Source: Pavlovales sp. CCMP2436 (taxonomy: Eukaryota; Haptophyta; Pavlovophyceae; Pavlovales). From it: a stretch of DNA of 18,547 bases. The DNA lies in contig MU631536.1 of NCBI GenBank assembly GCA_026770615.1, positions 10,914-29,460 of the forward strand, written 5' to 3'. Within the stretch, counting starts at the first letter, position 1, and the number at the start of each line of letters is the position of its first letter. Below, one piece after another: positions 712-18,547 of this stretch. A program made the position numbers and the translations under genes. The notes beneath the pieces were generated by a model, which did no database searches, was not told the DNA's origin, and saw only the letters and a program-made list of their open reading frames with translations.

Positions 712-808
712 TGTGACGCTCTGACCTTCTTAACGCTTCATTCTCGCAGCGGGCGGTTCTGCACTGGCGCTGCACGCGGCGCAGCGCGCCGACGTACGCA
801 CAGGCCAA

Positions 809-1780
809 ATGCGGTGTAATACCAAGCCGAAAGGCCCGCTCCTGCCCGCCGGCGCGCCGAACTCCGACGCGCCGACGCCGACCGAGCCGCCGCCCGTGCT
901 GGACAGGACGACTCCCCTCGAGCTCGTCCTCGCGCTCATCGCGGCCGCCGGGCTCTGCTATGGCTACTACTGCGTCGGCGCGCTGCTCGGCCCACGCTGG
1001 ATGATCGGGCTCGGTGCCGCGTGGGCTGTGATGTTTTTCCGGTTCCACTTCCAGATCTGGTACTACGGCGGGATGAAGGGCTACCTCTACCTCACCTGGC
1101 GCTACCCGCACTGCTTCATCTACACGCATGCGCTCTGCCTGCTCTACAACATTTGGAAGCTGGCGGCGCTCGTGGTGCACAACCTCAACCCGCTCTTCGA
1201 CGACCGCGGCAAGATGTACAAGGTGACCACGCCTCCGAGCGGCCTCACGCTGCACGACTACACCAAGATGGCCATGGACCTCAACAAGCCACGCCACTTC
1301 AAGAAGGGCCACACGTACTGGTGGCCGATCATATACCCGAACGTCGTGTCGCCCACGATCTGCGTCAACGTCTACGTGATCGGCCCGTACGCGGGTTTCG
1401 GCTCGCTGCCGTACGTCTACTCGGACCACCATATCACCTTCCGCAACGACCTCCTCGGCACGCACCCTGGCTACAACAACCACGTGACGCTCTTCTTCAC
1501 CGACAAGAAAGAGGGCTACTGGTCAATCAACTCGATGGTCCTGCCGCCCTTCTCGTGGATGTACAAGTTCCTGTGGGAGTGGTACGCGACGTCGATGCAC
1601 CTGATCATCGCCGAGTCCGAAGAGCGCGCGACCAAGCACCCGACGCGCACCTACCAGGGCAATGGCCGCGACCTCTACTTCGGCGAGTACGACCCGCCCA
1701 CGTTTGAATCGATGTGGAAGCCCAAATGGAACGCCAAGGACGAGTGCGAGCTGCAGTGCTTCTCGCCCGTGTACGTGTGA
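809..1780 (+). CDS. Polytopic membrane protein of unknown function
   Basis: A 323-codon ORF with strong G/C third-position bias, matching the gene at 5273. Residues 1-35 are Pro-rich and probably cytosolic. Hydrophobic segments follow at about 37-59 and 64-80, with a third around 103-124. The remaining ~200 residues are rich in Tyr, Trp, His and Phe (for example GHTYWWPIIYP, YSDHHITFRND, WSINSMVLPPFSWMYKF). They include many histidines, but not in a spacing I can assign to a desaturase or hydroxylase. I do not recognise the family. An acceptor-like tract (pyrimidines, then CAG) ends at 749 and the frame is open from there to the ATG. An upstream exon is therefore possible and the true N-terminus may differ. 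The stop is TGA at 1778-1780. Substrate, partners and compartment are unknown. That this is a real gene is well supported by composition and length; its function is not. Confidence 0.75.
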   Translation: MRCNTKPKGPLLPAGAPNSDAPTPTEPPPVLDRTTPLELVLALIAAAGLCYGYYCVGALLGPRWMIGLGAAWAVMFFRFHFQIWYYGGMKGYLYLTWRYPHCFIYTHALCLLYNIWKLAALVVHNLNPLFDDRGKMYKVTTPPSGLTLHDYTKMAMDLNKPRHFKKGHTYWWPIIYPNVVSPTICVNVYVIGPYAGFGSLPYVYSDHHITFRNDLLGTHPGYNNHVTLFFTDKKEGYWSINSMVLPPFSWMYKFLWEWYATSMHLIIAESEERATKHPTRTYQGNGRDLYFGEYDPPTFESMWKPKWNAKDECELQCFSPVYV

Positions 1781-2714: not shown

Positions 2715-2884
2715 TACAGGAGATCACGGGCAATAATAAACCGTCGTGTTAAGAAACTGAGCCTCGTTTTTTTGCCCTTCACTAGCAATTTTAACCAAAA
2801 TTTAACCATTGTTTGTATGTAATTTGCTAAGAAACTCAGCTTCAGCCTCAAAAGCGCCGTTCTTATTGCCCGCGATCCCTTGTA
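2715..2884. mobile_element. MITE-like element, TACAGGGG family, copy 1 (full length)
   Basis: A 170-bp non-coding element. It opens with TACAGGAGATCACGGGCAAT and closes with the inverted form ATTGCCCGCGATCCCTTGTA. TA dinucleotides at both outer edges fit a TA target duplication, as made by Tc1/mariner-type transposases. The interior carries two related GAGGCTGAGTTTCTTA-like blocks and an AT-rich centre. It forms the outer end of the left ~1-kb inverted arm. Confidence 0.8.
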
Positions 2885-2945
2885 CTAAGGGTAGGGTCCG
2901 GGGGGGGGGGGAAGGGGGGATCCTCCGAGCCGAAGTAAAGAATGA

Positions 2946-2995
2946 CTTCGGCGCCCTTCATATTAAGATTTTAATTAATTTGAAGGGCGCCGAAG
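2946..2995. repeat. Perfect 15-bp stem hairpin
   Basis: CTTCGGCGCCCTTCA at 2946-2960 is the exact reverse complement of 2981-2995, around a 20-nt AT-rich loop. The right-arm counterpart, near 12624-12673, keeps the stem with about one mismatch. Confidence 0.85.
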
Positions 2996-3033
2996 GCTTT
3001 AAGAAACTGAGCCTGCTGCTCCGCCGACTCTAA

Positions 3034-3441
3034 GAAACAGCTCCGAAACTTACCCTCACTTTTTGTGCCCTTCAATAGTAATTATATAGCGGCTCAGCAT
3101 GGTTCAACAGGTGTTGTTCACTCACTGACTTGGTCGATGTCAGACTTTAGTCCTGGCAGCAGGGATGGTGGTGGTAGAGGTGAGGTTGGTGGTGAACTCG
3201 TAGCAATTGCCACAGGTCCCCCCCCCTCCCCCCCCACACACACAACGCTCACGTCCATTTAGATGCGTGTGCCCTGTCCGCCGCGGCCGCCGCGGCCACC
3301 GCGGCCGAGGCGTGCGCCCCGGTCGGCATTGTGGCTGCGCCAGTAATTCAAGCAAAATTTAAACATTTTTTGTATGTAATTTGTTAAGAAACTGAGCCTC
3401 AGCCTCAAATTCGCCGTCCTTATTGCCCGCGATCCCCTGTA
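3034..3441. mobile_element. MITE-like element copy 2, truncated at one end and split by an insertion
   Basis: Family interior sequence (AAGAAAC...CTCACTTTTTGTGCCC) starts near 3034, without the outer TACAGGGG end. It is interrupted at 3084 and resumes at 3349, ending in CCCGCGATCCCCTGTA at 3441. The right-arm counterpart (12436 to about 12580) is uninterrupted. Confidence 0.7.
3084..3341 (+). mobile_element. 258-bp insertion with 7-bp target-site duplication
   Basis: AGTAATT at 3077-3083 is repeated at 3342-3348. The intervening 258 bp are absent at the same position of the right arm, where the empty site reads ATAGTAATTCAAGC. The first ~92 bp (ATATAGCGGCTCAGCATGGT onward) recur at 16191-16282. 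GGCTCAGCATGG resembles a tRNA-type A box, and GGTCGATGTC about 35 bp further on is a weak B-box match, so a SINE is possible. The inner part has G-rich, C-rich and CCGCGGCCG repeats. No poly-A tail is seen. Confidence 0.7.
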
Positions 3442-3658
3442 CACTGAGAGATACAGGCTTCCGCACATTAATTTGTCTCTTTTTTTAGTTTGTGCTGCAG
3501 GTGCGGCATTTACGCAGGCGAGTTGCATCTTGAGACGACGAGCGAGATGCAGTGGAGGTCGGGCAACGCGCCATTAGAGAGTCGTCGACTGTCGTGTGTC
3601 TGATCCGAGCACACTATGTCTGGGCGGGAAAGATAATATGACGATTAAGCTCAGGGGT

Positions 3659-3875
3659 TGTAACTCCCAAGATTAAATCCTGGAATTGCTTGGGATTGGG
3701 ATTGGGAGTTGGGAGGCATAATGGGGATTGCAAGCAATCCCCGGGGATTGGGAGTTGAGATCTGCCACGGCGCTCTGGGATTGCTTGGGATTGGGATTGG
3801 GAGTTTAAGCAATTCCTTGGAACTCCCAAGCAATCCTCTGAAACTCCCAAGCAATCCCAAGCAATCCCTTAAAAT
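3659..3875. repeat. AAGCAATCCC / GGGATTGCTT repeat cluster, left arm
   Basis: Many copies of GGGATTG, GGGAGTT and their complements are arranged in both orientations, so the block can fold on itself. A close copy in inverted orientation lies at about 12003-12215, and a divergent cluster at 4446-4665. ORFs crossing this area (Asn/Pro/Ser or Gly/Ile/Leu repeats) are products of the low-complexity sequence. Confidence 0.75.
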
Positions 3876-3909
3876 GAATAATTTTGGATTCAGAGGTGAG
3901 CCAGCCACA

Positions 3910-4080
3910 TACAGGGGATCGCGGGCAATAAGAACGGCGCTTTTTGAGGTTGAGGCTGAGTTTCTTAGCAAATTACATACAAACAATTGTTAAATTTTGG
4001 TTAAAATTACTATTGAAGGGCAAATAAATGAGGCTCAGTTTCTTAACACGACGGTTTCTTATTGCCCGCGATCCCCTGTA
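3910..4080. mobile_element. MITE-like element copy 3 (full length)
   Basis: Starts TACAGGGGATCGCGGGCAAT at 3910 and ends in the inverted form CCCGCGATCCCCTGTA at 4080, 171 bp with TA at each edge. The large inverted-repeat match ends inside it, near 3972. Confidence 0.85.
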
Positions 4081-4687: not shown

Positions 4688-5272
4688 TAAATAGCCTTAC
4701 TTCAGATAATGAATTTCAAATAGATGCAGTTCGTGTCACAGCATCTCTAAATCAGGTTTCTAATCAACTCATATTATTAGCGCCCTCAGACACTCAGACG
4801 ACACAGATGTTGGTGACGGCGCACCGGATTTCAGCGTGTTGGGTTCGCCGATCTGGTCCTTGATGCCGAGCGGGGTCGGCTGGCGACGATGTCGCCCTTG
4901 ATTGATCCTTGAGTGTCCTCGACCGAGAGGGACGTGTGCGATCAGCACGAGGTATCCTCGATGACGTCATGTTGGGTTCGCCGATCTGGTCCTTCTCTAG
5001 ACTAGTCCTTGCAGCGCTAGTCGGATCCCGAGCCTCGGGAAGCAGGTCGAAGTAAGTCTAACATCCTACATTTACAGGAAGGTAAATGAGGGCACGAGCC
5101 CCAAAATCCCGACGTAACAGTCTGAATCCGGCTCTGCGCCCACACTGATAGTCCAGTCAGTGTCTGCGGCCAGACCAGCACCACGCTGGATCCGTAGCCT
5201 GACAAGCGACCTTCAGCAAGGGGGCTTCAAGCTGCTGCTGCTGCTGTTGCGGCCTTCTAGCGAGCGAGAGCC
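4688..5272 (+). promoter_or_regulatory. Upstream region of the lipoxygenase-fusion gene
   Basis: About 585 bp without a convincing gene. It holds the second copy of the dispersed repeat (4748-4831) and a direct repeat starting TGTTGGGTTCGCCGATCTGG at 4837 and 4970. ATGACGTCAT, a perfect palindrome containing the bZIP/CRE-type core TGACGTCA, lies at 4961-4970. An in-frame TAG 15 bases before the ATG at 5273 limits the 5' UTR. A promoter role is inferred from position only. Confidence 0.4.
4748..4831. repeat. Dispersed repeat copy 2 (upstream of the 5273 gene)
   Basis: Matches 634-711 with a few substitutions and small insertions. Just left of it, GTCACAGCATCTCT (about 4734-4747) is the reverse complement of the AGAGATGCTGTGAC inside copy 1. 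The full element may therefore be a small one with terminal inverted repeats of about 14 bp. Confidence 0.75.
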
Positions 5273-8200
5273 ATGCAAAAGATCGCGGCCCACTGCGCGC
5301 CGCCGCCGCCGTCGAAGAAGAACGCGGGCCTGGCCAAGGTGCGCCTGCTCTCGGAGGACGCGGTGCGCTCCGACGCGATCGGCACCTCGCCGCTCGCGGT
5401 CGGCCACTCGCACGCGCCGGCGTCCTCGGCCGAGGTCGGTGGCCGCGCGCTGCTGGCCACCCTGTTTTTGGTCAAGTCGATCGGCACCCTCCTCCTCGGC
5501 TTGGCCATCGTGCTCATCCCGGGCGTTATCGGCACTGGCTTCCCGCTCTACCTTTCCAAGACCCTCGCCGACGATCCGATTGCTGTCGACTACATTCGCG
5601 CGGCGGCGACCGCTCTCGCCATGGGCGGCCTCGGCGGAATCCCGACGGCGCTCTATAATCGATCGGTGCTCGTGTTCGCGTCCATCTTCAACTCGATCGC
5701 GCTCAGCATCCAGGCCTCGATCGCCTACTCCCTTGGCATCCTCCCGCTCTCCCTTCTCGTCATTGTGCTCGCCACTGACTTGGGCTCGAGCCTCGTGGCT
5801 GTCGCCATCACGTATGTCTTCCCGGATGCGATCCCCGTCGACAAGCGCGCGCTGCTCTGGGCGGTGAAGGCGCCGGCGGTCCGCTCCGCGCGCTCGTACG
5901 CCGTCGAGGTTGAAGGCTACGCGCTCATGACGTTTTACCTCTTGCTCTCGCTCCCGTGGGTCGGTCGCGCGTTTGTCGCCGCGAACTCTGAGCGTCTCGG
6001 CTTTGTGGACGACGGCATCAACGACCTGAGCGGCCCCTGCTTGGAGATGTTTTCGATCGCAACCTTCTGGCTGGCCAGCATGTACTGGTTCTACGTGCCG
6101 GCCGCGCGCTCTATGTCTCTCGGCACGCTGCGCAGCGCGCGCCTGCAGCGCATCGTCCTGCTGATGCTCGTCGCATACGTGCACTTCACCGGCGGCGACG
6201 CGGTCGATCATCGCAACCTGTTTTACACGATCGGGCTACTCGCCGCGCTCTTCCTCGGCCTCGACTACTACTGCACTTTCTACGACGGCATCTTTTCGGG
6301 GTACGCCAACGAGGACCCCGACGCTGAAACCAAGCTGCGCGCGACGGAACACACGCTCTACCACCAGGTGCGATCAAGCGGGCGGGCCATCCAGTGGGAC
6401 TTGGCGCGGGCGTCGCGCGCGCGCGAGGTGCCGCGCGCGCGTGTACGCGCGCTGACGCGCGCGCGCACGCGCGCCCTGCCCTCTTTCTGCTCGGGCGCTG
6501 TCTGGCTGGCATGTCGTCCCTTGCTCCTCACCTCCGCCCCTCTCCTCGCGCTCTCGCGCACAGGACGGGCTCTCGACGCCCGCGCGCTGGGTGACCATCT
6601 CCGCCGCCGCGCAGTTTCTGTTCACGGCAGTCTGGACGCTCCTCTCGAGCTCGGGTATGCCTTTCCTCTTCCCCAAGGTGTTGCCGGGCGTGGCTGCTGT
6701 CGCCTACAAGATCCACGTGCAGGTGTGCGCCGCGCGCCGCAGCCGCGCGCGCGCGCTCTCGCTTTCTCCGCGCCTCTCGCCCTCGCGCGCGCGCCGCTCG
6801 TGCTGCGCTCGAGTGCTCTCGACCGGCGCGCTGACCCTACGATCCAACCTTGGCCCGCAAATGCGCCGCTCGCGCCGCTTGCCCGCCTCATCGCGCGTTG
6901 CATCGCACAGGACGTGCTCGTCTGCTTTCTTAATGCCCTCGTCGGACTTGTGCTGCTCCCACTCATACCATCATCGGACGCGGCCGGCCAACGGCTGCAC
7001 GCTCTTGTCGCCTTCTTCGTGCCGCTGGTCTCGTGGTGGTATTCGCTACAGACCAAGCTGCTGATGCACATGCAAGGTGGCTCGCCCTTCCTCCCGTCGT
7101 GGCTCGCGGAGGGCGTCGGCACGACCTTCACCGACATCATCGCGGATGCGACCACGTGGGGCGCGAGCGTCGCGCTCAACCTAATCCTCCCCATCACGCT
7201 ACTCGTGATCGCGCACCGCATCGCGCCGCAGCCGTTCGCGGAGCTCGCCAGCGCGAAGGCGATTGGCGAGACCGCGCGGCCGCTCCGCGCGCTGATGGTG
7301 CAGCAGATGCTCGCGCAGGTTAGCCTCTCAAACGTGTGGCTGCTCGTCGCCTCGTCGGGCCTGCCGATGCCGACGCAGTTCCTCACGTCGCTCATCGGCA
7401 TCCCGGCGCTGCTGCCGGTGAACGCGAGCGTGGCTGAGCAGATTAACCGCTACGACCTGATCGGCGCCTTATTCCTCGTCTTCGTCGGCGCGGCGCTGCC
7501 CGACTGCGGTCCGGAACGACTTGGAGTCGTCAAGCGCGCGGCGCCGCTCGTTGTCGGCGCGTCGTGGTTCTACAGCCTCGCTGTCAAGATCGCCGCGCAT
7601 GCCGGCACGACGCCCGCCTTCCACCGCTCGTGGCAGGACATGTTTGGCACGCCCACGCACGCGTCGCCCGCCGCCGACGTGCTCTCGTGGCTCGCATTTG
7701 CACTGCTCAATTTTGTGGCGCTGCCGTACGTGACCTACGCCTTCTGGCCGTGCGTCTCGCTCACCAAGATGCGCGGCGCCAACCCGCGCTTCAGGCAGCA
7801 GGTGTGCGCGGGACGAGGAGGGGATTGCGCGCCACCTGGCGAGCGGGCGCTCGCGAGCGCCGCACGTCGCGCGTTCCTCGCGCGCGCGCGCTGGCGAGCG
7901 CGCCCTCCGTTGTGCGCGCACTCACGCTTTTTTTTTTTTTTTTTTTTTTGCGCCGTGTGCCGCAGACGCACGTCGAGGTGATGCACTACAACCGCACGAT
8001 GGTCTTTCAGCACGCGCTTGTCTTCGTGTGGACGGCTGGCGTCTGGGCGCTGCTCACGTCCTCCGGCCTTGTCTGGCCGCTCGAGGCGCTCGCCTCGGCC
8101 AACGTGCAGCCGCCGCTGCAGTCGTACGCCAAGCCCAACCCGGCTGGGTGGGAGCACGTGCACACGCAGGACATGCTCCTCGCGCTGCAATTCGGAATCG

Positions 8201-9020
8201 TCGCCATCGTCCTCGACTACGTGCCGATCAAGCTAACGGGCGCGCGCGAGAAGATCGTGACCAACGCGCAGCTCGCGCTCCTCACCAGCTGGGCGCTGAG
8301 CATCTGGTCCAAGGTGCGAGCGCGCGCTCGCGCGAGGGAGGGGAGGCAGGGCTCGCGGCGTAGCCCCCGTGACCAGAGCCCGTCGCTCGTCCTGCGCCCG
8401 CCCTGCCCACGTCTTGACCTCGCCTGGCCGTTTGTGCTCGCGCCGCCCCGGACGCCCCCTCTCGCCCTCCCCTCTCCCCCAGGTGATGGTTAACGCCATC
8501 TGGAACGGCGCCGGCTCGTACGGCCACTGGAGCTACCGCAGCGGCGACAGCACGTACGCCAAGGAGCAGGGCGTGCTCGACATCTGCTTTGTGGTCGCGT
8601 GCACGCTCGGCTACGTCGTGAGGTATGTCTTGCTTGCACTTAGAGAAACGTGCATACCTCATGCAAGCCCAACGAAACACATGATCAAACAAAACATGGG
8701 TTCTGTTGCGTTCTTCTTGCAATCTCCCCCCCCCCCCCCCCCCCCCCTCCCCCAGCCCGCTCTTCATCTTCTTCACTCTGCGCAACGCCATCGGCCGCTT
8801 CGCGCATTCGCTCGCCATTGGCAAGAAGCACCACGTCGAGGAAGGTGGCCGTCGGCCCCACGCGACAGCCGCACGCACGCCTCCACGCGGCTCTGTCGAT
8901 GCGCGCGCCTCCTCACGTGTCATCTGCCCCCCCCCCTCCCTTCAACGCGCAGCCGTGGTCGAGAACGACCTCTGGTCCATGTGGATCACACTCATCGGCC
9001 GCCTCCTCGTCAACACTAAG
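5273..9020 (+). other. Membrane region of the fusion (exons 1-7), with a triplicated module
   Basis: Residues 1-57 are a soluble N-terminus. Exon 1 then has hydrophobic segments near 58-83, 155-180, 215-235, 255-278, 291-307 and 316-335. Exons 2-5 repeat a ~150-residue plan three times. Each repeat has a helix ending in VW-LL-SSG (VWTLLSSSGMP; VWLLVASSGLP; VWALLTSSGL), then a D-led hydrophobic helix, then an SW-containing helix (SWWYSL; SWFYSL; SWALSIW). A Trp-containing loop and another helix follow. The first two repeats have GG/GTT...F-SW before the last helix. I cannot assign this region to a known transporter or enzyme family. Total helix number needs a predictor; by eye it exceeds twelve. 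Confidence 0.6.
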
Positions 9021-10868
9021 GTATACTATTTATAATGACGTGCGCTACAAACGCCGAGGGCGGTAATCTCCAACCCCTGGTCTAGTCCCAGGCGGCAGGG
9101 TGAGTCAATAATCCTCCATTCATCAAATAACTCTCTCCTCAGGCCTACCACCTCATGGCGCTCCTCTCGCGGGTTTTTGCGCCGCCCGAGCAGCAGTTCC
9201 TCACCGTCGACCGCATCGCGTACGCAATGCAGGCCCCGTCCAAGGAGCTCCGCCGCAAGCACTTCAAGGAGGTAGAGGTTTCGCGCGATGAGCACGGCTG
9301 GTACTACTGCTCCAAGGTGCCCGACGCGATCGAGAAGTTCCAGCGCACCGAGATCCTCCCCGCGATGGCCATGCACACTCTCGAGAAGGCGCCCGGCACC
9401 TTTTTGGAGATCATGCGCACGCGGCTCTTCCACGCGGCGCCGGGCTGGATGTCCTACACGCACCTCACCGACGAGCTCTTCAACGACATCTTCCACTCGC
9501 GCTTCGGCGCCGAGGTGCTGCGCAAGCCGACCGCCGCCGAGCGCGAGCTCGTCAAGTCGCTCCTGTCCAAGAAGGGCAAGTACGTGATCATGCGCAAGTC
9601 GAGCACCAAGGCGCGGCTGGAAGGCGCTGTCAAGCTCGTCCAGGTCGCGCTTTCACCTCTCACACCTCACCTCTCACACCTCACCTCTCACCTCTCACAC
9701 CTCACCTCTCACACAGTCACACCTCACCTCTCACACCGATTCGTCCAGGCCGCCGGCATCAACTTTGACAAGGAGCTGACCATCTGCGACCTCTCTCTCT
9801 TCACCAAGGGCTGCGAGCGCAAGGAGCACGTCTTCTGGGTGCCTGATACCAAGCTCTTCTTCTCGGCCTCGTCGCGCGGCATTGACTGCGTCGCGATCGA
9901 GTTCCAGCACAAGGACGGCTCGATCGAGCACTACGTCGACTCGGGCGCGAGCGACTCGGACGAGTGGCACTTTGCAAAGCGGCTGGCGGCGACAGCGCTG
10001 ATCACGGCGCACCAGCTGGGCGTGCACCTCGCGCACGGCCACCTGCTCGCCGAGTCGCAGGTCGTGCTCGCCTACAAGCACCTGACGCCGACGCACTGGC
10101 TCTTCAACTGGGTCGAGCCGCTCGCGGGCGACGTGCAGTTCATCAACGAGACTTGGGGCCTTGAGGTGATCATCTACGGCACCATCATGGACATGGGGCC
10201 CATGACCAGCCCTGGGCTCGCAAAGGTGCGCGCGAGCGCGCGGACTGCCTTGCGCGCGCCACCGCCTTTGCTCACGCGCGTGTCGCGCGCGCCGCCGTCC
10301 GCGCCGCCTCCGTTGCGCGCCGCCCGTCGTCCGCTCAGATCCTCGAGAACGCCAAGTCCCTCGCCTTCGAGGGCGACCTGACGTGGGATCTGATGGAGCG
10401 CCTCAAGCCCGAGCACAGCGGCGTGCCCGAGCACTGCCCCTTCAACTACCGCTTTACCGCGCGAATCCTCCAGGGCTACGTGCGCGAGCTCGCGACCGCG
10501 GTCGCCGACAAGTACTGGTCGCCGGCCGACAAGGCGACGATCAACTTTCTGCGCGAGGTCTACTGGTGGAAGGCGCCGCCGAATACCGTGACCAAGAAGG
10601 ACGCGATCGACTGGATGACGGGCTTCTTCATGAACGCCTCGTACCGCCACGATTACTCGCACGACGACTACCTCTGGCGGATCGGCCACGCGCTGCCGAC
10701 GGTGCTCATGGCCAACCCGGTGCCGAGCGACCCGTCGACCTACATGTGCGCGCCACGCTGCGCGCGCCCCGAGCAGCGCGACGATACGCGCGCGCGCGCC
10801 AAGCGTGCGCGCGCGTCGGCTCGCGACGTTGCCCCGTTCACCGCGTCGTAAAATCCCCGACCGCGCGC

Positions 10869-10902
<34 letters not shown>

Positions 10903-11259
10903 TATGTATAGAACTATGCCACTCCGGGAGACCTCTTTCGGGGACAGACGTCCTAACTGAAATCTTATCTTTTACTCTTACTCAATACGTGCTCGACAAA
11001 GAGATCATGGTTATAACTATACCTTGCTTACCTGCGCAGGCCGAACAAAAAGATCTTCTCGATGTCGCTCCAGATCGCGCACTCGCTGCAGGCGGGCGTG
11101 ATCGAGACACCGCTTGAAGCCTACTATTATTTAGTAGAAGGAGACGCCGACAAGGACATCCGCCTGGCCGTCGACAAGTTTGTGAGCAACGTGCAGGGCC
11201 TGCTCGTGCTCGGCGGCCGGCACGAGCACATGAACCAGTGCGGCTCGATGACCCACTAG
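5273..11259 (+). CDS. Polytopic membrane protein-lipoxygenase fusion, 11 exons
   Basis: Proposed exons: 5273-6367, 6564-6722, 6911-7801, 7966-8313, 8483-8622, 8756-8844, 8953-9020, 9143-9643, 9749-10225, 10339-10745 and 11040-11259. Every intron is GT-AG (105-294 bp). Phases agree at every junction, including the phase-2, phase-1 and phase-2 introns after exons 5, 6 and 10. The joined frame is 4,395 nt, or 1,464 aa plus stop. An in-frame TAG at 15 bases upstream and a GCC context support the ATG at 5273. Residues ~58-930 contain many hydrophobic segments; residues ~931-1464 are a lipoxygenase catalytic domain. Lipoxygenases use non-haem iron to add dioxygen to 1,4-diene fatty acids; here the enzyme would be membrane-bound (inference). 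No PLAT or signal peptide is evident. The weakest points are the intron 8 donor (GTCGCG, alternatively read through as 35 codons) and the 3' end. Two adjacent genes would be the alternative, but exon 7 joins exon 8 in frame and no stop or start separates them. Confidence 0.82.
9644..9748 (+). other. Intron 8, tandem CACCTCTCA repeats, flanked by 9-bp direct repeats
   Basis: The intron is 105 bp, built mostly of CACCTCTCA/CACACCT repeats. TCGTCCAGG occurs at 9636-9644 and again at 9741-9749, spanning both splice junctions. Read through, it adds 35 codons without a stop. The donor GTCGCG is weaker than the other donors, so retention or coding use cannot be excluded. Confidence 0.6.
10746..11039 (+). 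other. Intron 10, the longest, with a 30-nt poly-T
   Basis: The donor at ACAT|GTGCGC and acceptor at GCGCAG|G complete an ATG (Met) codon across the junction. At 294 bp it is the longest intron. T30 lies at 10870-10899, far from the acceptor, followed by AT-rich sequence unlike the CG-rich first part. This could mark an inserted element in antisense orientation. Confidence 0.6.
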
Positions 11260-11904: not shown

Positions 11905-11967
11905 TTTGCTAAGAAACTCAGCCTCAGCCTCAAAAAGCGCCGTTCTTATTGCCCGCGATCCCCTGTA
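11905..11967. mobile_element. MITE-like element copy 4, 3' end only
   Basis: Begins near GCTAAGAAACTCAGCC and ends CCCGCGATCCCCTGTA at 11967. The rest is cut off, which marks the inner boundary of the right arm. Confidence 0.75.
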
Positions 11968-12002
11968 TCTGGCTGGCTCGCCTCTGAATCCAAAATTATT
12001 CA

Positions 12003-12215
12003 TTTTGTGGGATTGCTTGGGATTGCTTGGGAGTTCCAGAGGATTGCTTAGGAGTTCCAGGGAATTACGCAAACTCCCAATCCCAATCCCAAGCAATCCC
12101 AGAGCGCCGTGGCAGATCTCAACTCCCAATCCCTGGGGATTGCTTGCAATCCCCATTATGCCTCCCAACTCCCAATCCCAATCCCAAGCAATTCCAGGAT
12201 TTAATCTTGGGAGTT
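12003..12215. repeat. AAGCAATCCC repeat cluster, right arm
   Basis: Inverted counterpart of 3659-3875, with the same mix of GGGATTG and CAATCCC in both orientations. Confidence 0.75.
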
Positions 12216-12435
12216 ACGACCCCTGAGCTTAATCGTCATATGATCTTTCCCGCCCAGACATAGTGTGCTCAGATCAGACACACGACAGTCGACGACTCTC
12301 TAATGGCGCGTTGCCCGACCTCCACTGCATCTCGCTCGTCGTCTCAAGATGCAACTCGCCTGCGTAAATGCCGCACCTGTAGCACAAACTAAAAAAAGAG
12401 ACAAATTAATGTGCGGAAGGCTGTATCTCTCAGTG

Positions 12436-12580
12436 TACAGGGGATCGCGGGCAATAAGGACGGCGAATTTGAGGCTGAGGCTCAGTTTCTTAACAAATTA
12501 CATACAAAAAATGTTTAAATTTTGCTTGAATTACTATGGAAGGGCACAAAAAGTGAGGCTAAGTTTCTGAGCTGTTTCTT
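12436..12580. mobile_element. MITE-like element copy 5, uninterrupted, one end missing
   Basis: Starts TACAGGGGATCGCGGGCAAT at 12436 and runs to GAGGCTAAGTTTCTGAG without a closing terminal repeat. It shows the empty site (TTGAATTACTATGG) for the insertion found in the left arm. Confidence 0.7.
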
Positions 12581-12727
12581 AGGGTCGGAAGAGCAGCAGG
12601 CTCAGTTTCTTAAAGCCTTCGGCGCCCTTCAAATTAATTAAAATCTTAATATAAAGGGCGCCGAAGTCATTTTTTACTTCGGCTCGGAGGACCCCCCTTC
12701 CCCCCCTCCCCCGGACCCTAACCTCAG

Positions 12728-12898
12728 TACAGGGGATCGCGGGCAATAAGAACGGCGCTTTTTGAGGCTGAGGCTGAGTTTCTTAGCAAATTACATATAA
12801 TCAAATGTGAAATTTTTGTTAAAATTACTATTGAAGGGCAAAAAAGTGAGGCTCAGTTTCTTAACAAGACGGTTTCTTATTGCCCGCGATCCCTTGTG
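12728..12898. mobile_element. MITE-like element copy 6 (full length)
   Basis: Opens TACAGGGGATCGCGGGCAAT and closes CCCGCGATCCCTTGTG, 171 bp. It is the inverted counterpart of copy 1. Confidence 0.8.
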
Positions 12899-14919: not shown

Positions 14920-15089
14920 TACAGGGGATCGCGGGCAATAAGAAACCGTCGTGTTAAGAAACTGAGCCTCATTTTTAGCCCTTCAATAGTAATTTTAACC
15001 AAAATTTGACCATTGTTTGTATGTAATTTGCTAAGAAGCTCAGCCTCAGCCTCAAAACCCGCCGTTCTTATTGCCCGCGATCCCCTGTA
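14920..15089. mobile_element. MITE-like element copy 9 (full length, best preserved)
   Basis: TACAGGGGATCGCGGGCAAT at the left and its exact inverse ATTGCCCGCGATCCCCTGTA at the right, 170 bp. This is the best reference copy for the family. Confidence 0.88.
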
Positions 15090-15473
15090 CCTAGGATATT
15101 CATTAATATAGTTTATTTCGCTCGAGACCCCTCATCGTCGTTGGATCATAACGACGTCACTCCAAGGATTGAATCCGCCGTGCCAGCAGGTACCTCTTGC
15201 GCGCCTCTCACTTGGCACGCCGTAGCCAAGGGTGGACTGGAGTTTTGGAAATAACGCCGGAGAAGAAGTTGATTGAATCAATCAACCCGCAGGCGCCCGG
15301 CCGGCAGGCCTCTTTCGATTGCGAAAAATTGTGTAGGGTCTATTTAAGCCGTTTTATGGTCTAAATAGGCCATATCCTATGTTGCACGTGCGCTACGAGC
15401 GGTCGGCCTACAGCCAACCGCCCAAAGAATCAAGTAATCAAGTTCGAAATAAAGTCCACAGTAGTACTATATA
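15090..15473. other. Intergenic, no gene seen
   Basis: Contains the perfect palindrome TTGATTGAATCAATCAA (15269-15285) and a CTATTTA...TAAATAG stem near 15340-15370. The end (AAGTAATCAAGTTCGAAATAAAG) leads into the AT-rich edge of the next element. Confidence 0.4.
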
Positions 15474-16194
15474 TATATTTATGATAGGGATTCAAGCTGG
15501 CGTCTGACTGTTCTGAATGTTGTGCTGGTCTGAGCGCTGCGTCGCCCATTGCCTGCTGCGTGCCTTAGTCGGCTGCGCTGTCTTGGGTGCCACCGTACTA
15601 TATATATATGCTCGACCGGACGGCCTCGCGTTGCCTGGTTGGGCTCCTTCGGCTCCTTCTTCAACTAGTCCTTCCACCGCTCTCCCGCGCGGCGGCCCGC
15701 GCCCTGCACGCGCGAACAAGTTCACGGCATTCAAAATCCAAACCCGCCATCAAATGGACTCGCTCGCGCTCGACGTCTCGGCTCCTTCGGCTCCCTCTTC
15801 AACCAGTCCTTCCACCGCGCCCCCGCGCTGCGGCCCGCGCCCTGCACGCGCAAACGAGTTCTCGACATTCAAAACCCCATCGCTTCCCAGCGATACGTCC
15901 CCGCTGGGATCACCAATGGACTCGCTTGCTCGCGCACTGTAGGGCGGCCCCGCGTTGCGCAGCGACTTCAGCGCTTTGTTTTCGGCTTCCTCATCATCCA
16001 CCACTTCGTAGCGCGTAGGAGCCTGCGTCGGAGCGCTTAGATCAGCCTGACTTGAACTTGAAACGTACCGCCAGCCCGAACCCCCCTACATTAATATATA
16101 TATATAGCGCAGCAGGCGATGGGCGACGCAGCGCTCAGACCAGCACAACATTCAGAACAGTCAGGCGCCAGCTTGAATCCCTATCATAAATATA
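15474..16194. mobile_element. 721-bp transposon-like element with 87-bp terminal inverted repeats
   Basis: 15474-15560 and 16108-16194 are reverse complements with about two mismatches. The interior contains a 138-bp in-frame tandem duplication (copies starting near 15642 and 15780). It carries a 141-codon plus-strand frame (15517-15942) that repeats PSAPSSTSPSTA and GPRPARAN; this is low-complexity and not a transposase. Probably a non-autonomous DNA element. No clear target duplication was found in the AT-rich flanks. Confidence 0.75.
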
Positions 16195-16282: not shown

Positions 16283-17120
16283 GTACAGTCCTCAGTCACA
16301 CATCACGGAGCGGTTTTGCGTGTGCCCGTCTCAAGTTTTTCCATCAGCATCCTGTGTACGTGGGCGCAATAACCTCACGCACGCAATCATCATTATGAGT
16401 TATACATACTATTCGCTGCTTCAATAACTAGATGTAAGAATACTAAGATGAATATGATACTAAGTATCAGGCCCAGTTTTTCCGTGTGCGCATGCATATC
16501 CCCGCGTTTTATCCAGTATTGGCGGGCCGCATAATCGCTCGCGGCGCGGGCCCGCCTGACAACGGCCAATTTTAGAAAGCGGTCACTCGAGCTGCAGAGC
16601 CGATTCTCGTGTGTCTGATCAGCCTTAGCGGTGGGGACGGTATCCGTGTTCTGCAAAGGTCCCTTGATCCGAGTGTTTCTCAACACTTGGGTCCGGTGAA
16701 GACCTGTCAGGGGACGGACGCATTTTTAGATATTTACACACGCAGCCATCAGCTCAGGATTGAGAAACGGCGCGCCGCCGCCGCCGCCGCCCTCCGCCAG
16801 GTTGAAATTGAGCACAGAGGCGGGTGCGAGGCCCGCGGCCGAGATAGTTTCGGTGAAACTTTCCAGCCGCAGTGAGCGCCCCTTCTCGGCAGTACCTGTC
16901 GGTCGTGTCAGGTGGAACTCGAGCCTAATAAAGAACCATTGTCATTTTCATTATCATTTGGGGCATGTGTGTGTGTATGTGGGGGGTAGGGGTAGGGGTG
17001 GGGCTCCAGGGTAGGGGGGGGAAGTGGTCGATGGAGGTCGATGGGAGATGCGGGTGTGCGTATGAGGGGATGGGGGAGGAGAGTGGGGAGGGGGGGAGGG
17101 GGGTATTCCGCGCGTACCCC
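16283..17120. other. Unassigned stretch; short repeats and a G-rich tract
   Basis: An 88-codon plus frame (16609-16875) includes a GCC-repeat Ala run, and a 97-codon minus frame lies at 16393-16686. Neither resembles a family I know. A possible AATAAA lies at 16928-16933. From about 16965 to 17105 a GT run passes into a strongly G-rich purine tract. No confident gene. Confidence 0.4.
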
Positions 17121-17342
17121 AGCGGCAAGCGGCCGTACCCGTGCGACGAGCCGGGCTGTGAGTATAGCGCCACTTAGACGGGCGCCCTCACGAGGCACAA
17201 GCGCACGCACAGTGGCGAGCGTCCGTACGCCTGCGACGAACCGGGTTGCGACTTCAGGGCTACTATTGCGGGTAGCCTCGCGAGGCACAAGCGCACGCAC
17301 AGCGGTGCCGAGCGGATGTACACAGATCATAATCATATTTAA
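17121..17342 (+). pseudogene. C2H2 zinc-finger fragment with internal stop
   Basis: Two fingers of the same type as the minus-strand gene: RPYPCDEPGCEYSAT is followed by TAG at 17175-17177, then [18 protein letters not shown], then a complete finger [23 protein letters not shown], ending at TAA 17340-17342. The TAG sits inside the first finger exactly where the helix begins, so this copy is broken. It faces the minus-strand array to the right. Confidence 0.8.
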
Positions 17343-17389
17343 TCATGATTGCCATCGTCCTACAATTATAACTGTGCTTGCGCACGCTC

Positions 17390-17552
17390 GTGCCTCACGA
17401 GGGTACCCACCTCAGCAGCCCTGAAGTCGCAGCCCGGCTCGTCGCACGGGTACGGCCGCTCGCCACTGTGCGTGCGCTTGTGCGTCTCGAGCGAGGGTAG
17501 CCGCATCAGCGGCCCTGAAGTCGCAGCCCGGCTCGTCGCACAGGAAGCAGCG
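17390..17552 (-). pseudogene. Two degenerate C2H2 fingers downstream of the zinc-finger gene stop
   Basis: Just after the TAG of the minus-strand gene the sequence continues with [18 protein letters not shown]. About four extra bases before the THKRTH part then shift the frame, and a second finger follows ([23 protein letters not shown]). These resemble the plus-strand DFRAT fingers more than the EYSAT fingers of the intact array. Confidence 0.65.
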
Positions 17553-18547
17553 CTAGGGCTCGTCGCCCGGCGGGGCTGAGTCCGAGCCCTCGACGCCGCC
17601 GAAGACGATGAACGAGCAGTGTTCCGAGACCACGAACGCGTGCACGCAACCGCGGCGGGGGCAGCTTCGCGCCCCGCGCCCCGCGCACGGGGTTGTCTCC
17701 TCCGCCGGTGGGGGGACTGCGCGCGCCGCTCGGCGCGATCCCGGGAGGGGATGGTGGGGCGGCATTCGCGGCTCGAGCTCGTGCTCTAGCTGGCGCTCGC
17801 TCACTTGAGCTTGGCTCGCCCGAACATTCAGCGGAGTGTGTCGAGCCCCGTGTCCGCTGTGCGTGCGCTTGTGCTCCTTGAGGGTGCCCGCCTGAGCGGT
17901 GCTGTACTCGCAGCCCGGCTCGTCGCACGCGTACGGCCGCTCGCCGCCGCTGTGCGTGCGTTTGTGCGTCGTGAGATGGCTCGACCGAGTGGCGCTGTAC
18001 TCGCAGCCCGGCTCGTCGCACGGGAACGGCCGCTCGCCACTGTGCGTGCGCTTGTGCTCCTTGAGGTGGCCCGCCTCAGTGGCGCTGTACGCGCAGCCCG
18101 GCTCGTCGCACGGGAATGGCCGCTCGCCGCTGTGCGTGCGCTTGTGCCTCGCGAGGTTGCCCAGCTGAGTGGCGCTGTACTCGCAGCCCGGTTCGTCGCA
18201 TGCGTACAGCCGCTCGCCGCTGTGCGTGCGCTTGTGCTTTGTGAGGTGGCCCGCAGTAGTGGCGCTGTACTCGCAGCCCGGCTCGTCGCACGGGAATGGC
18301 CGCTCGCCGCTGTGCGTGCGCTTGTGCTTTGCAAGGTTGTCCGGCTGAGTGGCGCTGTACTCGCAGCCTGGTTTGTCACATGCGTATGGCCGCTCGCCGC
18401 TGTGCGTGCGCTTGTGCTTTGCGAGGCTGCCCGGCCGAGTGGCGCTGTACTCGCAGCCCGGCTCGTCGCACGGGAATGGCCGCTCGCCGCTGTGCGTGCG
18501 CTTGTGCTCCTTGAGGGTGCCCGCCTGAGCGGCGCTGTACTTGCAGC
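17553..18547 (-). CDS. C2H2 zinc-finger protein, tandem array (partial, runs off right edge)
   Basis: A minus-strand frame open from the right edge to TAG at 17553-17555 (331 codons including the stop). Seven complete fingers and one partial finger follow the pattern C-x4-C-x12-H-x3-H with linkers HSGERP(F/Y). The repeat unit is 28 residues (84 bp); one linker has an extra Gly. The framework (CDEPGCEYSAT...[11 protein letters not shown]) is nearly constant while the helix positions that contact DNA vary, so a sequence-specific nucleic-acid-binding protein is likely. After the last finger comes a ~98-residue tail with Pro-rich sequence and HAFVVSEHCSFIVFGGVEG, which is weakly kelch-like. The N-terminus and start codon are outside the window. 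The listed shadow frames here are out of register with the fingers. Confidence 0.85.
   Translation of the reverse strand, partial: CKYSAAQAGTLKEHKRTHSGERPFPCDEPGCEYSATRPGSLAKHKRTHSGERPYACDKPGCEYSATQPDNLAKHKRTHSGERPFPCDEPGCEYSATTAGHLTKHKRTHSGERLYACDEPGCEYSATQLGNLARHKRTHSGERPFPCDEPGCAYSATEAGHLKEHKRTHSGERPFPCDEPGCEYSATRSSHLTTHKRTHSGGERPYACDEPGCEYSTAQAGTLKEHKRTHSGHGARHTPLNVRASQAQVSERQLEHELEPRMPPHHPLPGSRRAARAVPPPAEETTPCAGRGARSCPRRGCVHAFVVSEHCSFIVFGGVEGSDSAPPGDEP

Follow-up and report, generated by a model that had tools for sequence, protein, structure and literature searches.

A gene of Pavlovales sp. CCMP2436 joins a polytopic membrane region to a divergent lipoxygenase homologue

Analysis of a window of 18,547 nt from Pavlovales sp. 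CCMP2436 revealed a transcribed single gene (5273–11259, plus strand, as are all features below) that comprises a membrane half and a lipoxygenase (LOX) half, while an origin from two genes is very unlikely. On balance, we favor the explanation that it encodes one membrane-integral protein, with an N-terminal polytopic domain containing repeats and a C-terminal divergent LOX catalytic domain that would peroxidize polyunsaturated acyl chains.

Gene Organization

Removal of ten GT-AG introns resulted in a single frame of 1464 codons plus stop without internal stop codons, beginning at the ATG at 5273, which is the first ATG downstream of an in-frame stop. Exon 1 (5273–6367, aa 1–365) encodes the N-terminus and the first hydrophobic segments and is identical to the JGI protein P0003 (1499 aa). 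It is followed by exon 2 (6564–6722, aa 366–418), exon 3 (6911–7801, aa 419–715), exon 4 (7966–8313, aa 716–831), exons 5 (8483–8622) and 6 (8756–8844), both placed by the splice model and the alignment with P0003, and exon 7 (8953–9020), the final exon of the membrane half, reaching to aa 930. The LOX half begins with exon 8 (9143–9643, aa 931–1097) and continues with exon 9 (9749–10225, aa 1098–1256), which holds the HQx3Hx4Hx3E motif, exon 10 (10339–10745), which holds the Hx3H pair His1360 (10648–10650) and His1364 (10660–10662), and exon 11 (11040–11259), which encodes the C-terminus HMNQCGSMTH and includes the stop codon.

The initial annotation had proposed eleven exons and ten introns in one frame, and this was largely retained, given the open frame of 1464 aa and the absence of nine of the ten introns from the cDNA-sized P0003. 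Intron 8 (9644–9748, 105 nt) is doubtful, as it has no in-frame stop and is present as 35 aa in P0003. A translated-tail comparison showed no insertion at this position in P0004, a protein from a second, distant species, and the stretch is apparently either an intron retained in the P0003 transcript or not an intron. The position of intron 2 is common to P0004, which reveals a read-through stretch at this site. An intronless version of exons 1–3 (906-aa ORF, 5261–7981) was rejected: it is exon 2, read in a different frame, that matches P0004, and the read-through sequence is rich in Ala and Arg.

Connection of the Two Halves

The initial annotation had also postulated one gene with a LOX domain after a large polytopic membrane region, and P0003 and P0004 both carry this fusion. 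P0003 matches the spliced model throughout, including across the exon 7–8 junction (9020/9143), apart from the 35-aa insert (97.7% over 1499 columns, i.e., 1464 identities plus the insert). Its longest contig has 4938 nt (CDS of 4500 nt with stop) compared to a genomic span of 5987 nt, and judging from these lengths it would therefore derive from spliced RNA. Thus, the suggested check of transcripts over this junction is answered by a cDNA-sized contig encoding a protein that crosses it. The suggested search for other proteins with the same order of halves led to P0004 from another organism, which is 36–37% identical to the membrane half (E=4.5e-164). A single frame of P0004 runs from the membrane half through 'SYFYRTLTWISHIVSPPEQQYLTVDRIA' into the LOX half, passing the boundary of the two halves without an intron, and is followed by an apparently unspliced stretch. 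The tail in the next frame fits LOX residues 959–1137 with a score of 248 (at most 61 in 12 shuffles), identity to the LOX half being possible at 114 of 173 positions. Searched separately in the genome, the two halves matched only their own exons (4 and 7 places).

Two adjacent genes, or read-through between two genes, taken for one would be in line with the location of intron 7 (9021–9142) at the domain boundary, where the first frame, if left unspliced, stops at 9033–9035 and the LOX frame opens at 9131, and also with the existence of P0001, a stand-alone LOX half from a third species (646 aa, labelled 'complete' in its transcriptome source). However, the halves are just 122 nt apart, separated by a GT-AG intron that is rich in pyrimidines toward its 3' end and is removed in P0003; P0003 is continuous over the junction, and P0004 crosses the boundary in another species. 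Since both proteins would have to be assembly artefacts, we rejected this reading as extremely improbable. P0001 rather shows that the LOX half is modular, and the fusion in the window still stands.

Lipoxygenase Half

Residues 931–1464 (534 aa) were identified as a divergent LOX homologue. In a profile search of the PDB, all 15 sequences at E<=0.1 were LOXs (best E 9.7e-5), as were 17 of 18 in a single-sequence search (best E 0.0011). Comparison of the LOX half with LOX by hhalign resulted in 96% (E=4.7e-9) for an alignment of 238 columns that covers both His motifs, using a template built from segments found by searches with the LOX-half protein; the control with the membrane half gave 0.1%. 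An AlphaFold model of the LOX half was poor (pLDDT 40.6), and with this model Foldseek listed LOXs on ranks 1–38, with the first non-LOX at E=0.32 (best 50 of 296 matches) and query-normalised TM values of 0.10–0.17 for the LOX matches. The Pfam score for PF00305 was 16.2 bits, below the curated cut-off of 23.6, and the relatives P0001 (15.6 bits), P0002 (12.5 bits) and P0003 (13.8 bits) also remained below it. An NCBIfam search of the protein resulted in no match, and the Pfam search in none to PLAT. Based on profile hits, profile–profile comparison and Foldseek on a poor model, the assignment as a divergent LOX homologue appears to hold.

The protein contains the motifs HQLGVHLAHGHLLAE (HQx3Hx4Hx3E) and RHDYSHDD (Hx3H). 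His1190 (10025–10027) and His1195 (10040–10042), which fall on the His motif when the protein is aligned to described LOXs, are predicted metal ligands (10025–10042), and together with His1360 they line up with the LOX motif histidines and are identical in all three aligned sequences (window, P0001 and P0002). The fourth metal position corresponds to His1364 by spacing from His1360, while automatic alignments, shifted by one residue, give Ser1363; both would be allowed at this position, for which a 2026 review names His, Asn or Ser (PMC13059375). According to the same review, the last residue of LOXs is Ile or, in very rare cases, Val. This terminal Ile/Val is absent here, as His is the last residue in the window, in P0003 (the same protein) and in P0001, the three sequences compared, since P0002 and P0004 stop short of the C-terminus. 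We rejected a missing last exon supplying the Ile on the grounds that P0001 and P0003 both terminate with HMNQCGSMTH, a chain end that is invariant between the protein of the window and P0001. Overall, 7 of 644 ten-column windows were fully identical between the protein of the window and P0001, four over the Hx3H site, two over LQAGVIETPLE and one at the extreme C-terminus. Thus, of the LOX catalytic domain claimed in the initial annotation, the motifs are in place and homology is indicated by profiles, while the Pfam score lies below the cut-off and the usual terminal residue is lacking.

Based on these deviations, the half might also represent a LOX fold without dioxygenase activity, i.e., a catalytically changed or dead LOX whose role within a membrane protein would be regulatory, through lipid or redox binding. 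Its divergence from every LOX of known structure (E about 1e-4 for the best PDB match), His in place of the C-terminal Ile/Val and the Pfam score would fit this, which we nevertheless regard as fairly unlikely, given that, of only three places where ten consecutive columns are identical to P0001, one covers the Hx3H site and another the extreme C-terminus, and that the histidines of both motifs are identical in all three aligned sequences. This conservation argues for a metal site under selection and is in keeping with the catalytic domain favored here.

Membrane Half

The description of exons 1–7 as encoding about 930 mostly hydrophobic residues was borne out by simple KD hydropathy, which revealed 13 strong segments, all within residues 64–883, in the hydrophobic residues 1–930. 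A looser threshold, with hydropathy averaged with P0004, resulted in 21 peaks. BLAST without composition correction detected internal repeats (aa 381–510 against 553–687, E=1.4e-11; aa 544–737 against 725–918, E=1.3e-7), which were also seen by alignment. Thus, the half contains three related tandem repeats, probably of four helices each, namely R2 (6582–7288, aa 372–544, split by intron 2), R3 (7289–7992, aa 545–724, split by intron 3) and R4 (7993–8990, aa 725–920, split by introns 4–6). Candidate repeats R0–R1 further upstream (aa 55–371) found no confirmation with the R2–R4 profile, which gave E=0.35 with R0R1 of the window, and the match in P0004 includes the start of R2. With 12 spans hand-chosen from the 21 hydropathy peaks, K+R on the two faces of aa 356–930 amounted to 23 and 8, compared to 25 and 11 in P0004 with one loop left out; the positive-inside rule therefore predicts a cytosolic location of the catalytic half.

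Pfam revealed no family at E<=1 for the membrane half of the window, while that of P0004 reached UPF0154 at best (E 0.026, 14.9 bits with a cut-off of 27.1). Comparison with PDB profiles gave a best E of 1.2 to an MHC chain, and searches of NCBIfam and PHROGs yielded nothing above threshold. A six-repeat profile found no match in the PDB and, in Pfam, PepSY_TM at best (0.012, for one of the six repeats). The half thus reached the threshold of no known family in Pfam, NCBIfam, PHROGs or PDB, so that the proposed HMM search of each half resulted in a relation to LOX below the Pfam cut-off for one and no match above threshold for the other. The AlphaFold model of exon 3 was poor (pLDDT 47.6), and its Foldseek matches, many of them GPCRs, were discarded as weak (best E 0.63).

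This half might be the functional core of the protein, a transporter or a lipid scramblase/transfer protein composed of related repeats, whose cargo is edited or sensed by the LOX half. Its size (930 aa, the LOX half having 534 aa), the internal repeats and the polar residues kept in each repeat (S, D, K and E, along with three W, among 11 columns invariant over six repeats) point in this direction, but neither Pfam nor the PDB revealed similarity above threshold to known transporters, nor did the exon-3 model lead to any, and we consider such a role improbable.

Proposed Function and Distribution

For the favored membrane-integral LOX, we suggest that the N-terminal half is a polytopic domain with 13 strong hydrophobic segments, or as many as 21 when weaker ones are counted, and that three of its blocks are the related tandem repeats. 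The C-terminal half may bind iron (or manganese) via His1190, His1195 and His1360, with His1364 at the fourth position (His/Asn/Ser in LOXs) and the chain-end carboxylate, here on His1464, presumably replacing that of Ile/Val, and could peroxidize polyunsaturated acyl chains taken out of the membrane that holds the N-terminal half, or offered by it. The coupling of lipid peroxidation to membrane sensing or lipid transfer put forward in the initial annotation is likewise a hypothesis. More tentatively, the protein may stand for a new class of membrane-integral LOX in marine protists, in which a repeat-built domain extracts or presents lipid to the attached LOX and the C-terminal His completes the metal site with its carboxylate, a self-contained machine for membrane-lipid peroxidation. 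A LOX-like domain kept in a large membrane protein across distant species would offer a direct way into lipid delivery to the active site, its changed terminal residue tests the strictness of the C-terminal carboxylate rule, and the membrane half forms a protein family with internal repeats outside known families.

In the three protein searches, about 8000 candidates each were scored, resulting in 2, 2 and 1 matches; absences from them prove little because the third missed the known P0004. No relative was found in viral contigs (queries A1 and A2) or genome contigs (query A1). A canonical LOX in the same genome was detected neither by Pfam search nor with a 5-LOX segment, results that carry no weight since both lacked a positive control. 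On contig C615, a fragment of psaA interrupted by in-frame stops indicates no more than that the lineage possesses a plastid or once possessed one. Among the matches listed from the literature on LOX and on haptophyte genomes (titles and abstract openings), none concerned a LOX with a polytopic membrane region attached, and within these we could not find a description of a LOX combined with a many-helix membrane protein.

Comparison with Known Systems

LOXs are generally seen as soluble, visiting membranes with the help of either PLAT or a second protein. Plant, animal, fungal and bacterial LOXs (PF00305) share with the protein described here the homology of the catalytic domain over about 240 columns with both His motifs, and its C-terminal half (534 aa) is near the size of a solved LOX chain of 569 aa, which we take to lack PLAT. 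While they end in Ile or Val, our protein ends in His, scores below the Pfam cut-off, shows no PLAT match and has a many-helix membrane region attached. A LOX partner located in the membrane is FLAP, a separate small four-helix protein. 5-LOX working with FLAP (PMC4501781) provides a working analogy for the proposed mechanism; in our case, the membrane part is covalently attached and far larger, and no PDB chain matched it better than E=1.2. The coral AOS-LOX and HPL-LOX fusions (PMC3925239, PMC5617202) likewise carry a C-terminal LOX behind a large partner fused to it at the N-terminal side, but in these corals the N-terminal part is catalase-like, an AOS or HPL enzyme, and here it is a polytopic membrane region. 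Similarly, the SRPBCC-LOXs of red algae and marine bacteria, e.g., PhLOX (PMC11507377), include algal LOXs with a non-PLAT N-terminal domain, which that paper describes as beta barrels, in contrast to the membrane domain of the protein presented here.

Gene Structure and Fusion of the Two Halves

The window lies on contig C227 (29,460 bases) of a 119-Mb assembly of 703 contigs, and its introns mark it as eukaryotic. The gene on the forward strand at 5273–11259 was initially annotated with eleven exons separated by ten GT-AG introns; spliced accordingly, it has 1464 uninterrupted codons plus a stop. Its start ATG is preceded by an in-frame stop codon, and GC3 amounts to 0.89 in the membrane half (residues 1–930) and 0.93 in the lipoxygenase (LOX) half (residues 931–1464). 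Queried separately against the whole assembly, both halves matched only their own exons (seven and four places, respectively) among the best candidates, which alone were scored.

A protein search with the membrane half resulted in two matches among 7992 candidates scored, namely P0003, a JGI protein of 1499 aa from four contigs (longest 4938 nt), and P0004, a relative of 1238 aa from a second species (contig of 6118 nt). P0003 aligned with the spliced model over 1499 columns (97.7%), N-terminal Met and C-terminal His included, and differed only by 35 additional residues, the exact translation of 9644–9748. Thus, nine of the ten proposed introns were confirmed by their absence from P0003, while intron 8 (9644–9748), which is read through there, is at best optional. 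A copy of TCGTCCAG marks each end of this doubtful 105-nt stretch (9636–9643 and 9741–9748), a pattern as after insertion or tandem duplication, and its interior consists of CTCACCTCTCACAC-type repeats.

As proposed initially, both halves belong to one gene, since P0003 continues across their junction (9020/9143). Because a contig of 4938 nt is too short for the genomic locus of 5987 nt, we infer that P0003 derives from spliced RNA. P0004 has the same order: its membrane half, 36–37% identical to that of the window, leads without a frame change into 'VSPPEQQYLTVDRIA', a stretch with homology to the beginning of the LOX half, after which the frame is lost. Read in the adjacent frame, its tail is compatible with LOX residues 959–1137 (script score of 248 vs. 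61 for the best of 12 shuffles); the other frame scored 28 vs. 49 for shuffles. A read-through stretch in P0004 coincides precisely with the site of intron 2. Because P0003 spans both halves and P0004 passes into the LOX half, the fusion is present in two distant species. Altogether, the analysis shows a real gene in which the two halves are covalently linked, which is transcribed (as argued from the lengths), and which is conserved in two species.

Since only 63 residues without similarity precede the LOX half in P0001 (646 aa, MMETSP, labelled complete), a third-species protein, leaving no room for a membrane half, the fusion does not seem to be universal. The partial relative P0002 (442 aa) spans only model residues 1000–1392 and is uninformative in this respect.

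Lipoxygenase Homology

A PDB search with the single LOX-half sequence revealed LOX or AOS-LOX in 17 of 18 sequences at E ≤ 1 (best E 0.0011), the remaining one being ribosomal L38e, and with a profile of three relatives all 15 matches at E ≤ 0.1 were LOX (best 9.7e-5). Profile–profile comparison with segments of three solved LOXs gave 96% and E = 4.7e-9 over 238 columns, figures that are somewhat generous because the template segments came from searches with the same protein; the membrane half, as a control, reached 0.1%. The Pfam LOX model scored 16.2 bits, below its cut-off of 23.6. AlphaFold on P0001 (three-sequence input) gave a poor model (pLDDT 40.6), with which Foldseek, among the best 50 of 296 matches, placed LOXs at ranks 1–38 (E 5.8e-5 to 1.4e-2) and a cohesin chain at rank 39 (E 0.32); query-normalised TM-scores of the LOX matches (0.10–0.17) are too low to show the global fold.

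According to a recent review (PMC13059375), the features common to LOXs are three His, a fourth position with His, Asn or Ser, and a terminal carboxyl, usually of Ile and very occasionally of Val. The His motifs of the LOX half align with those of known LOXs, and its terminal residue is His instead of Ile/Val. Since the window and P0001 (two independent ends) agree in all of their last ten residues, despite only 8 identities in the preceding 30 columns, an error in this His seems unlikely; uninterrupted identity over ten columns (7 of 644 windows) occurs at three places, of which the C-terminus is one. Given the conserved His motifs together with the atypical terminal residue and the Pfam score below cut-off, the proposed lipoxygenase domain is regarded as a divergent LOX homologue, set apart from standard members. 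It probably works like a LOX; a catalytically changed LOX serving as a sensor is less likely.

Membrane Half

No family or relative above threshold was found for the membrane half in Pfam, NCBIfam, PHROGs, or PDB. With a loose threshold, hydropathy averaged with P0004 gave 21 hydrophobic peaks; a strict threshold gave 13. Residues 372–920 form three repeats of 173–196 aa (between-repeat E down to 2.3e-12, composition correction off), each probably of four helices. Across the six repeats from the two species, 11 columns do not vary (W, S, G, D, L, W, K, W, A, P, E). Over 12 spans chosen by us, the peak at 576–592 being treated as not crossing, K+R on the two faces amounted to 23 vs. 8 in the window and 25 vs. 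11 in P0004 (one read-through-bearing loop excluded). Because one face is richer in K+R, the LOX half would lie in the cytosol by the positive-inside rule.

Genomic Surroundings

The gene lies between the two arms of an inverted repeat, each about 1 kb long (2716–3972 and 11905–12897; pieces 88–97% alike), the left one carrying a 258-nt insert (3084–3341). Its pieces occur at many genome places, with at least 111 matches for 11905–12760; among the matches listed, a 631-nt 97% repeat pair occurs on this contig only. MITE-like units, each about 170 bp long and with termini resembling TACAGGGGATCGCGGGCAATAAG, lie at 3910–4079, 12728–12897, and about 14920–15090. An array of 90-bp units occupies 17120–18547; most units are on the minus strand, the part at 17120–17321 is inverted, and by eye they read as putative C2H2 zinc fingers. 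An open frame of 348 aa (734–1780, plus strand), which has no Pfam match and, judged by eye, a hydrophobic segment close to its N-terminus, is possibly a separate gene upstream.

Elsewhere in the assembly, psaA fragments at L013 (G000:C615:16059-17982) contain an in-frame TAA and TGA, and one of their flanks shares a repeat with the window at about 15481–15560; they are probably plastid DNA in the nucleus.

Proposed Function and Known Fusions

Most likely, the membrane half would tether the LOX half to a membrane as well as deliver or select polyunsaturated acyl chains, which the LOX half would then peroxidise; metal, substrate, reaction, and topology are what we infer for the fused protein. 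Less probable still than the sensor reading is one in which the membrane half acts as a transporter and the LOX half edits what it carries. Among the literature matches listed, with most subscription journals outside coverage, no LOX joined to a polytopic membrane region was found. The membrane partner matched no known family above threshold, and LOX fusions as such are already described: fusions with catalase-like enzymes in corals (PMC3925239, PMC5617202), and SRPBCC-LOX in red algae and marine bacteria as well as PLAT-LOX (PMC11507377).
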